Shown in pieces: positions 13,788 through 15,483 of a stretch of DNA of 64,000 nucleotides. Position 1 is the stretch's first letter, and each line of letters opens with the position of its first letter. The translations under genes and the position numbers were made by a program. The notes below the pieces were generated by a model that was not told where the DNA came from, did no database searches, and was given only the letters and a program-made list of their open reading frames with translations. Source of the stretch: Kitasatospora sp. CB01950 (GTDB taxonomy: Bacteria; Actinomycetota; Actinomycetes; Streptomycetales; Streptomycetaceae); contig NZ_LISX01000016.1 in the NCBI RefSeq assembly GCF_001905465.1, positions 62,001-126,000 of the forward strand, in the 5' to 3' direction.

Positions 13788-14354
13788 CTACGAGGCCGCC
13801 GCCCGGCCGTCGGTCGGCAGCGCCTCGGCGTCCCGCTCCAGGGCCGCCAGGTCGACGCCCCGCTCGCGCAGCAGTCGCACCGCCGTGCCGCCGCCCTCGC
13901 GGATCAGGCCGAGCAGCAGATGGCCGGTCTCGATCCGCCGCACCCGCCCGTCGGCCGCGGCGCGCAGCGACAGCGCCATCACCCGTTTGGCCCGGTCGGT
14001 GAACCGCGGCCCGCTCCACCGCGAGCGCCCGCCGGCCGGCGGGGCGTCCAGCGCGCCCGGGCCGAACGTCGACTCGACGGCCTCGCGCACCGCCGCCAGG
14101 TCGATGCCGATCGCCGCCAGCGCGGCGCCGTCATGCTCGGGGTCCGGGCCGCCCAGCGCGCGGGCCACCGCGAGCCGGCCGGCCTCCAGGTCCAGGCCGA
14201 AGCGGCCGAGCAGCCGGGCGGCCGGATCCTGCGGCTGGGCCAGCAGGCCGAGCAGCAGGTGCTCGGTGCCCAGGTGGCGGTGGCCCAGCCGCTGCGCCTC
14301 GTCGCCGGCCAGCGTCACCGTGCGACGGGCCTCCGTCGCGAATCGTTCGAACAT
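13788..14354 (-). CDS. Clp N-terminal-domain protein without ATPase domain
   Basis: 188 residues carrying two Clp N-type repeats. The first is at ~1-65 (FERFATEARRTVTLAGDEAQRLGHRHLGTEHLLLGLLAQ), the second at ~117-175 (FTDRAKRVMALSLRAAADGRVRRIETGHLLLGLIREGGGTAVRLL). In ClpC/ClpA this domain binds adaptors and substrates ahead of the AAA+ rings; here no Walker motifs follow, so it is a stand-alone N domain. It could compete for or deliver ClpC adaptors. It starts one base after the stop of the upstream HTH gene (TGA-A-ATG), so the two are almost surely translated together. Function is inferred only from domain content. Confidence 0.88.
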   Translation of the reverse strand: MFERFATEARRTVTLAGDEAQRLGHRHLGTEHLLLGLLAQPQDPAARLLGRFGLDLEAGRLAVARALGGPDPEHDGAALAAIGIDLAAVREAVESTFGPGALDAPPAGGRSRWSGPRFTDRAKRVMALSLRAAADGRVRRIETGHLLLGLIREGGGTAVRLLRERGVDLAALERDAEALPTDGRAAAS

Positions 14355-14355
14355 T

Positions 14356-14586
14356 TCAGTCCCCTCCCCGGGCGGTCGTCCGCCGCGCGTGCTTCTTGTG
14401 CACCGCCTGCCTGGTGACGCCCAGGCAGACCGCGATGTCGTGCCACGACCAGCCCTTGCCGCGGGCGTTGCCGACCTGGAGTTCCTCCAGCCGGTCGGCC
14501 AGATCGCGCAGGGCCCGGACGGCGCGCAGGCCGATGGCCGGGTCGCCGCTGCTCGCGTCGGCCGCGAGCTGTCTCGTCTCGCTCAT
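14356..14586 (-). CDS. Small helix-turn-helix protein, likely regulator of the Clp_N pair
   Basis: 76 residues from ATG at 14586 (MSETRQLAADA). The C-terminal half is a sigma-4/MerR-like HTH: GWSWHDIAVCLGVTRQAVHKKHARR at ~48-72, preceded by an amphipathic helix (ALRDLADRLEELQVGNARG) that may dimerise. No Shine-Dalgarno precedes the ATG. A -10 box, TATGTT, ends only six bases before it, which predicts a leaderless mRNA. Two GTCAAC-N4-GTTGAC palindromes overlap the -10 and -35, so the protein is probably an autorepressor of itself and the coupled Clp_N gene. The regulator role is inferred from size, motif and operator placement. Confidence 0.8.
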   Translation of the reverse strand: MSETRQLAADASSGDPAIGLRAVRALRDLADRLEELQVGNARGKGWSWHDIAVCLGVTRQAVHKKHARRTTARGGD

Positions 14587-14589
14587 GAT

Positions 14590-14605
14590 GTCAACATAGG
14601 TTGAC
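14590..14605. promoter_or_regulatory. Operator palindrome 1 of the HTH/Clp_N operon
   Basis: GTCAAC-ATAG-GTTGAC, perfect 6-bp arms with a 4-base spacer, covers the -10 box (TATGTT on the minus strand) and ends four bases from the start codon. It is identical in arms and spacing to the copy at 14618. Confidence 0.75.
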
Positions 14606-14622
14606 ACGATCGGGGCCGTCAA
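14593..14622 (-). promoter_or_regulatory. Promoter of the HTH/Clp_N operon, predicted leaderless
   Basis: On the minus strand -35 TTGACG (14617-14622) and -10 TATGTT (14593-14598) are separated by 18 bases. The start codon begins seven bases after the -10, so transcription should begin at or next to the A of ATG. Confidence 0.65.
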
Positions 14623-14633
14623 CCCCGGTTGAC
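14618..14633. promoter_or_regulatory. Operator palindrome 2 of the HTH/Clp_N operon
   Basis: GTCAAC-CCCG-GTTGAC, the same arms and spacer length as copy 1, overlaps the -35 box. The two centres are 28 bases apart, slightly under three helical turns. Confidence 0.75.
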
Positions 14634-14638
14634 AGAAA

Positions 14639-15391
14639 TCAGTACCGTTCCGCCAGGTACTCCGCGAAGGTGATCCGCCCGTCCGCGTGCTCCGGCACCA
14701 GGTTCCCGCCCGCCCGCAGCGCCTTCACCGCCCCGCCCGGCGTCGGCACCCGCAGGACCGGCCGACGGCGGCCCCTGGCCTGCAGGAACTCCTGCGCCAG
14801 CGCCTCCACCGGACGCACCTGCGGGCCGCCGAAGTCCGCCGCCCGGCCGACCGGCCCGGCCTCCGCGAGGTCCGCCAGCCGCTCGGCGACGTCCCGCACG
14901 TCCACCGGCTGGAACGCCACGCCGCGCGGCAGCAGCAGCACCGGCGCCTTCGACAGCCCGTCCAGCATGCGCACCAGCAGGTCGTGGAACTGGGTGGCCC
15001 GCAGCACCGTCCAGCCGAGACCGGAGTCGGCGACCAGCCGCTCGCACTCGGCCTTCGCCCGGTAGTAGCCGAGCGGCACCGCGTCCACGCCGACGATCGA
15101 CACGTACAGCAGGTGCGGGACGCCGGCCTCCCGGGCCGCCGCGACCAGCCGCCGGGTGGCGTCCACGTCCCGCTTGCCGTTGGTGGTCGCGCAGTGCACC
15201 ACCGTCCCGGCCCCCGCCAGCGCCGCCTCCACCCCGCGCCCGGTCACCAGGTCCGCGACCGCCCAGCCGTGCTCCCCCGGGGTGTGCGCCTGCCGGCTCA
15301 CCACCCGCACCGGGCACCCCCGCGCCAGCAGCCGGCGCACCACGGCCCGCCCCAGCGTCCCCGTCCCGCCCGTCACCACCAGCTGCCGCAT
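14639..15391 (-). CDS. NAD(P)-binding NmrA/SDR-like protein
   Basis: 250 residues from ATG at 15391 (MRQLVVTGG); a GTG nine bases upstream with GGAG in front is an equally possible start. The extended-SDR dinucleotide motif is TGGTGTLG at the N terminus, followed by RRLLARGCPVRVVSR and the AGAGTVVHCAT strand. There is no classical YxxxK: YYRAKAE is present in the right region and could supply Tyr and Lys. Later blocks (WTVLRATQFHDLLVRML, VDVRDVAERLADLAEAG) match NmrA-like and NDUFA9-like sugar/quinone-type proteins. A soluble oxidoreductase or redox-sensing protein is likely. Its 3' end lies beside the second operator palindrome of the next operon, but it has no visible functional link. Confidence 0.85.
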   Translation of the reverse strand: MRQLVVTGGTGTLGRAVVRRLLARGCPVRVVSRQAHTPGEHGWAVADLVTGRGVEAALAGAGTVVHCATTNGKRDVDATRRLVAAAREAGVPHLLYVSIVGVDAVPLGYYRAKAECERLVADSGLGWTVLRATQFHDLLVRMLDGLSKAPVLLLPRGVAFQPVDVRDVAERLADLAEAGPVGRAADFGGPQVRPVEALAQEFLQARGRRRPVLRVPTPGGAVKALRAGGNLVPEHADGRITFAEYLAERY

Positions 15392-15483
15392 CGCGCTCAC
15401 CCCATCTCCACCCCCAGCCTGCCCGCGCCGCCCGTCCCCGGCAGCCCGGCCCACGCACCCGGGGGAACGCGGTCACTCTGCGG

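Follow-up and report, generated by a model that had tools for sequence, protein, structure and literature searches.

A probable two-protein form of the mycobacterial ClpC2 autorepressor in Kitasatospora and related actinomycetes

Two adjoining genes of Kitasatospora sp. CB01950, one for a small HTH protein and one for a stand-alone Clp_N protein, probably constitute a two-protein form of the ClpC2 autorepressor and drug sponge of mycobacteria; we would put the probability of this reading at roughly 60%. The genes were examined in a window of 64,000 nucleotides of contig NZ_LISX01000016.1, the whole stretch of DNA that was analysed. The organism stands nearest to Kitasatospora (K. griseola, 95% identical) and not to Streptomyces. 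That the HTH protein regulates its own operon is very likely, while the complete account, in which the Clp_N protein acts as both sensor and sponge, is favored only by somewhat better than even odds. The principle is known from ClpC2; what appears to be new is the two-protein form, its breadth, a rule that links operator spacing to gene structure (split pairs have N4, fused genes N5) and a recognition code.

Promoter, operators and the two proteins

On the minus strand, from 14633 to 13788, the layout is a distal operator, 12 bases, a proximal operator, 3 bases and the HTH ATG, followed by the two coupled genes:

14618..14633, minus: distal operator GTCAAC-CGGG-GTTGAC, overlapping the -35; kept 5' of orthologues
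14617..14622, minus: -35 hexamer TTGACG, the second arm of the distal palindrome
14590..14605, minus: proximal operator GTCAAC-CTAT-GTTGAC, overlapping the -10 and ending 3 nt before the ATG
14593..14598, minus: -10 hexamer TATGTT, in the spacer and second arm of the proximal palindrome
14356..14586, minus: 76-aa HTH protein (P0001), predicted leaderless start at 14586, recognition helix GVTRQAVHKK; related to the ClpC2 N-terminal HTH and to RelI
about 14361..14367, minus: Shine-Dalgarno (SD) sequence GGAGGGG of the Clp_N gene, inside the 3' end of the HTH gene
13788..14354, minus: 188-aa stand-alone double Clp_N protein (P0002), ClpC N-terminal domain fold with an extra helix pair (72-97), no ATPase

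The preliminary description had reported two GTCAAC-N4-GTTGAC palindromes 28 bases apart, centre to centre, and both are where it placed them, with identical arms and different spacers. It had also put one palindrome on the -35 and one on the -10 of a near-consensus promoter, and indeed the two hexamers, 18 bases apart, match the consensus at 9 of 12 positions (0.0 expected in shuffles). The sequence agrees, too, that the -10 ends six bases before the ATG at 14586; a Shine-Dalgarno sequence was looked for upstream of the HTH gene in the window, and none was seen. Since there is no room for a leader, the proposal of a leaderless HTH message is well founded as a prediction from layout and from the SD counts over 84 pairs given below. 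The exact palindrome has just 3 sites in the whole 7.65-Mb genome, against about 0.13 predicted from base composition. (The third site, G000:C1:761085-761100, has the spacer ACTT and lies just upstream of rplN; the same 16-mer recurs in several close relatives and may represent chance conservation within the ribosomal operon.) A gene for an NmrA/SDR-type oxidoreductase (window 14639-15394, same strand) ends 5 bp upstream of the distal operator, and adjoins the pair mainly in near relatives.

A single base separates the HTH stop codon (14358-14356) from the Clp_N ATG at 14354. The Clp_N protein consists of two Clp_N repeats (Pfam PF02861, 5e-25); in the Clp ATPases ClpC and ClpB, AAA+ domains follow the N domain, whereas none is present in these 188 residues. 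Sequence and Pfam thus bear out the earlier claim of a 76-residue HTH protein coupled by a one-base gap to a free Clp N domain lacking the ATPase. An AlphaFold model (pLDDT 90.5) predicts a ClpC N-domain with the extra helix pair. In the PDB it is matched best by N-domains of ClpC, chiefly that of M. tuberculosis ClpC1 with rufomycin, lassomycin or ecumicin; complexes with MecA and phospho-arginine are also among the matches. The modelled protein thus resembles the ClpC N-terminal domain, the target of cyclomarin, rufomycin, ecumicin and lassomycin, in its fold (TM 0.70-0.87 by target length for isolated N-domains) and in its F2/F80 pocket, but differs in standing alone and in having an additional segment between the repeats, which looks like a partial duplication. 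Conservation of the Clp_N protein is among its highest at F2 and F118 (equivalent to ClpC1 F80), the counterparts of the two principal contacts of cyclomarin. On the other hand, the equivalent of ClpC1 E89 is Ala and that of H77 is Gly in the window's protein, so the range of ligands may differ. The genome's own ClpC has the same pocket residues in its N-domain, so a target for such protection exists in this organism. Among the split Clp_N proteins, conservation is best in segment 78-103; that it forms the face that binds the HTH protein is a guess.

The HTH profile of the split pair matches RelI (9sdc, E 1e-5) and the solved ClpC2 N-domain (8ADA), a construct that stops just short of the recognition helix; no significant match was obtained when the HTH model was compared with known folds. 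A phage search with the Clp_N protein gave no match, nor did PADLOC for the pair.

Likeness to and difference from mycobacterial ClpC2

Is there a known precedent for such an operon? The preliminary description considered that there was no described mechanism, but this view has to be abandoned. Mycobacterial ClpC2 (Rv2667) is a fusion of an HTH of the same family with a ClpC-NTD-like domain. The site that it binds in its own promoter, CGTCAAC-n5-GTTGACG, comes in tandem over the -35 and -10, and the leaderless start lies just past the proximal operator (PMC10030653). ClpC2 has been proven to repress itself; cyclomarin A relieves this repression, and ClpC2 serves as a sponge for the drug (PMC10030653, 2023). 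Not every ligand is an inducer: ClpC2 of M. tuberculosis also binds ilamycin and ecumicin, yet neither induces it (PMC12913811). (The "ClpC2" of the Streptomyces literature is a different gene, for a Clp ATPase; PMC12607617.) The operon in the window shares the half-sites, their tandem arrangement over the promoter and the leaderless layout, but it consists of two reading frames, with a stop codon and one base between them, where ClpC2 is one polypeptide. Furthermore, the spacer is N4 rather than N5, the recognition helix reads QAVHKK rather than QAAQKR, and the Clp_N protein has the extra helix pair. Compared with the cyclomarin contacts F96, F172 and E181 of ClpC2, it has both Phe, but Ala in place of Glu; the Glu is present in 60 of 83 split relatives.

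In a Clp_N tree, the split Clp_N proteins did not group with the ClpC2 C-terminal domain, and the tree did not decide whether split pairs arose from fused ClpC2, the reverse, or from ClpC, nor did it fix their place relative to ClpC; the function of ClpC2 therefore cannot simply be carried over to the split pairs. No account of the two-protein form, of its breadth, of the N4/N5 rule or of the recognition code turned up in the papers searched, which came largely from outside the subscription journals, so that a prior description is possible. One earlier paper that combined the terms Clp_N, HTH and Streptomyces proved unrelated.

Conservation and recognition of the operator

The genus was searched for orthologous pairs lacking the palindromes, which would have spoken against the preliminary description, and its account withstood this check: the exact tandem was found in 49 of the 52 genomes with an orthologous HTH gene and in 0 of the 18 without. 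Two of the three exceptions (G020 and G043) depart from it by a single mismatch, confined to one of the sites; in the third (G053), the distal site is lost and the HTH protein has an L-to-P change. Across the family, the tandem N4 pattern occurs in 107 of 299 genomes, with 0 matches to a reversed control pattern. Most of 31 sampled genomes have none or one further exact N4 site, which suggests that the operon itself is the main target. When loci were instead collected starting from the protein, HTH and Clp_N genes were adjacent in 106 of 107 (103 called automatically and 3 by reading). The promoter is also well kept among the 84 N4 split promoters: the -35 is TTGACA/G in 83, the -35/-10 spacing is 17-18 (19 in 3 promoters), and the TA of the proximal spacer, which belongs to the -10, is conserved (T 87%, A 94%) whereas the distal spacer is not. 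In 83 of the 84 split pairs, the start codon lies 2-4 nt past the operator, and SD-like sequences stand ahead of the Clp_N gene in 81 pairs and ahead of the HTH gene in 1. These comparisons of sequence support the conclusion that operator, pair and recognition helix have been conserved together across the actinomycetes.

Some variants were also encountered. Three loci of one family (L170, L171 and L172, in genomes G491, G483 and G394, family f19) have the tandem N4 operator and the HTH gene, but the coupled downstream gene encodes a beta-lactamase-family protein (PF00144) of 327-334 aa in place of Clp_N; the assignment is from a Pfam scan of the L170 protein, the other two being judged alike by reading. 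Further paralogous HTH and Clp_N pairs occur in genus genomes (L075-L078) with the outer half-sites AGCAAC/GTTGCT, and the Clp_N-like protein of L075 is a divergent one of 163 aa.

Spacer length follows gene structure. There were 134 distinct tandem operators, of which 93 are N4: 84 before HTH and Clp_N pairs, 9 before HTH genes without a detected Clp_N, and 0 before fused genes. (The 9 include one divergent Clp_N, one contig end and three with the beta-lactamase-family neighbour.) The N5 operators precede fused genes in 41 of 41 cases. A control starting from the proteins gave N4 for 52 of 55 split loci (the other three being two divergent paralogues and one mis-assigned start) and N5 for all 22 fused loci scored. 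The recognition helix follows the same division, with QA[V/A]HKK in N4 split pairs, almost without exception, and QA[A/V]QKR with N5. The genome studied here carries both systems. Its fused ClpC2-like gene (P0003, 243 aa, G000:C23:201037-201768) encodes counterparts of both solved domains of ClpC2, with matches to 8ADA (N-domain, E 8e-26) and 8AD9 (C-domain, E 5e-40), and has N5 operators, GTCAAC-CGATG-GTTGAC and GTCAAC-CTAGG-GTTGCC, directly 5' of the ATG. Spacer and matching helix (QAVHKK versus QAAQKR) probably keep the two systems of one genome from cross-regulating. Two imperfect relatives were seen as well: a fused ClpC2 in two pieces in different frames (G012:C1:887130-887851), either a broken gene or a sequencing error, and a 220-aa frame containing Clp_N in the present genome (L021, G000:C18:34594-35256), with no clear HTH upstream, possibly a degenerate ClpC2 relative.

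Which of the two proteins reads the operator? The recognition helix was compared with the operator over the same 107 protein-first loci, which come from both the genus and the class; the counts use the three half-sites that lie clear of the -35. Because GTCA...TGAC served as the anchor for finding sites, an operator of a wholly different kind would escape, and 25 HTH rows failed the filter, several of them with AGCAAC or CGCAAC arms. With Ala as helix residue 61, directly after the Gln, 94 of 94 operators have the half-site GTCAA, and GTCAG was found in 0 of 95; where it is Ser or Thr (QS/QT), base 5 is G (GTCAG) in 12 of 12. Residue 64 varies along with the next base, with E64 accompanying GTCAGG and T64 GTCAGT. 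A natural specificity change of this kind is seen in a paralogous pair on the megaplasmid pSCAT of Streptantibioticus cattleyicolor (S. cattleyicolor; L227, NC_016113.1 near 431057-431281), with helix QSVHEK and operator GTCAGG-GCAT-CCTGAC, and in a similar pair (L074) with the same helix and GTCAGG-N4-CCTGAC. The tree needs only about 3 changes of each trait, one of them on a strongly supported branch, which limits the independence of the covariation, and independent-pairs tests were not significant, with too few events. Helix and operator bases change together, and the comparison thus points to the HTH protein as the one that reads the operator.

A sensor and sponge in two proteins, and its alternatives

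The preliminary description had proposed an autoregulated operon. Layout, conservation and the covariation of HTH and operator agree with this; repression itself we infer. A dimer of the HTH protein would bind each operator and obstruct RNA polymerase at both elements, -35 and -10, of the leaderless promoter that drives its own gene. The Clp_N protein, made from the same message, would mimic the N-terminal domain of ClpC and, judging by its modelled fold and pocket, may sense and soak up ligands of that domain, such as cyclic peptides of the cyclomarin class or unfolded client proteins. By analogy with ClpC2, unliganded Clp_N would support the repressor, presumably through contact between the two proteins, and ligand binding would lift repression, leading to more decoy that shields ClpC.

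In mycobacterial ClpC2, the DNA contact has been assigned to R185 and R189 of the C-terminal domain: R185A/R189A weakens DNA binding, the equivalent M. smegmatis mutant expresses clpC2 2-fold more, and R57A in the N-domain raises expression 4.6-fold (PMC10030653). By extension, the Clp_N domain might itself contact the operator, with the HTH serving mainly for dimerisation, and the R185 equivalent is Arg in 78 of 83 split Clp_N proteins. However, the R189 equivalent is Arg in 31/31 fused but only 29/83 split proteins (Asp in the window), operator bases track the residues of the HTH recognition helix, and L170-L172 have the operator but no Clp_N gene; this reading is accordingly improbable, and the HTH is the better candidate for DNA contact, apparently for ClpC2 too. 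The HTH carries the specificity, and an HTH of this type serves other cargo in L170-L172; regulation could be plain autoregulation by the HTH alone, with Clp_N a regulated passenger making no contact with the repressor. This seems unlikely, if slightly less so, since pairing and coupling are almost invariant, a ligand on the Clp_N domain controls DNA binding in the fused relatives, and a loop without a sensor would have no input.

Least probable of all is a toxin-antitoxin-like module with Clp_N as the effector, despite the coupled, HTH-first operon and the match to the RelI antitoxin (Rv2664), a member of the same small actinobacterial HTH family that has been linked to the HTH of ClpC2 (PMC13284704). 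The partner of RelI is the toxin RelS (PMC13284704), whereas no RelS-like gene is found here and the partner is Clp_N, a mimic of a ClpC domain and not a nuclease, in all but one of the protein-first loci; together with the PADLOC result, this leaves any defence or toxin-antitoxin reading with low weight. The most serious competitor, although still rather unlikely, makes Clp_N a trans modulator of ClpC, either as a decoy for adaptors or substrates or as an adaptor delivering the HTH repressor to ClpCP, in a proteostasis feedback without any antibiotic role. The ClpC N-domain, which Clp_N equals in fold and pocket, docks adaptors and substrates too (MecA and phospho-arginine complexes appear among the matches), and the near-universal presence of the pair in many genera fits a housekeeping stress loop. 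The preliminary description had thought that a free N domain might intercept ClpC adaptors; for ClpC2, its own investigators raised the possibilities that it competes with ClpC1 for substrates or adaptors and that it acts as a holdase (PMC10030653). No adaptor gene adjoins the pairs examined, however. The two conserved cyclomarin-contact Phe residues do not separate the readings, as the pocket may serve clients.

There is about an even chance that these operons make up a large undescribed family of target mimics. In such a family, the DNA would be read by a separate HTH repressor, and a free decoy of the ClpC N-domain would detect antibiotics that bind ClpC, or its clients, and signal to the repressor in trans; a single base of operator spacing, together with the recognition helix that goes with it, would insulate the system from the fused ClpC2 paralogue of the same cell. 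DNA recognition by ClpC2 would then also lie in its N-terminal HTH, against the published C-terminal assignment, a site that the comparative data call into question. The natural specificity changes and the N4/N5 rule offer ready-made candidates for orthogonal repressor-operator pairs. Among antitubercular targets ClpC is a leading one, and ClpC2 is known to cause tolerance to cyclomarin; a split homologue in antibiotic-producing actinomycetes separates the sensor from the DNA reader, so that the lifting of repression by a ligand can be tested protein by protein.
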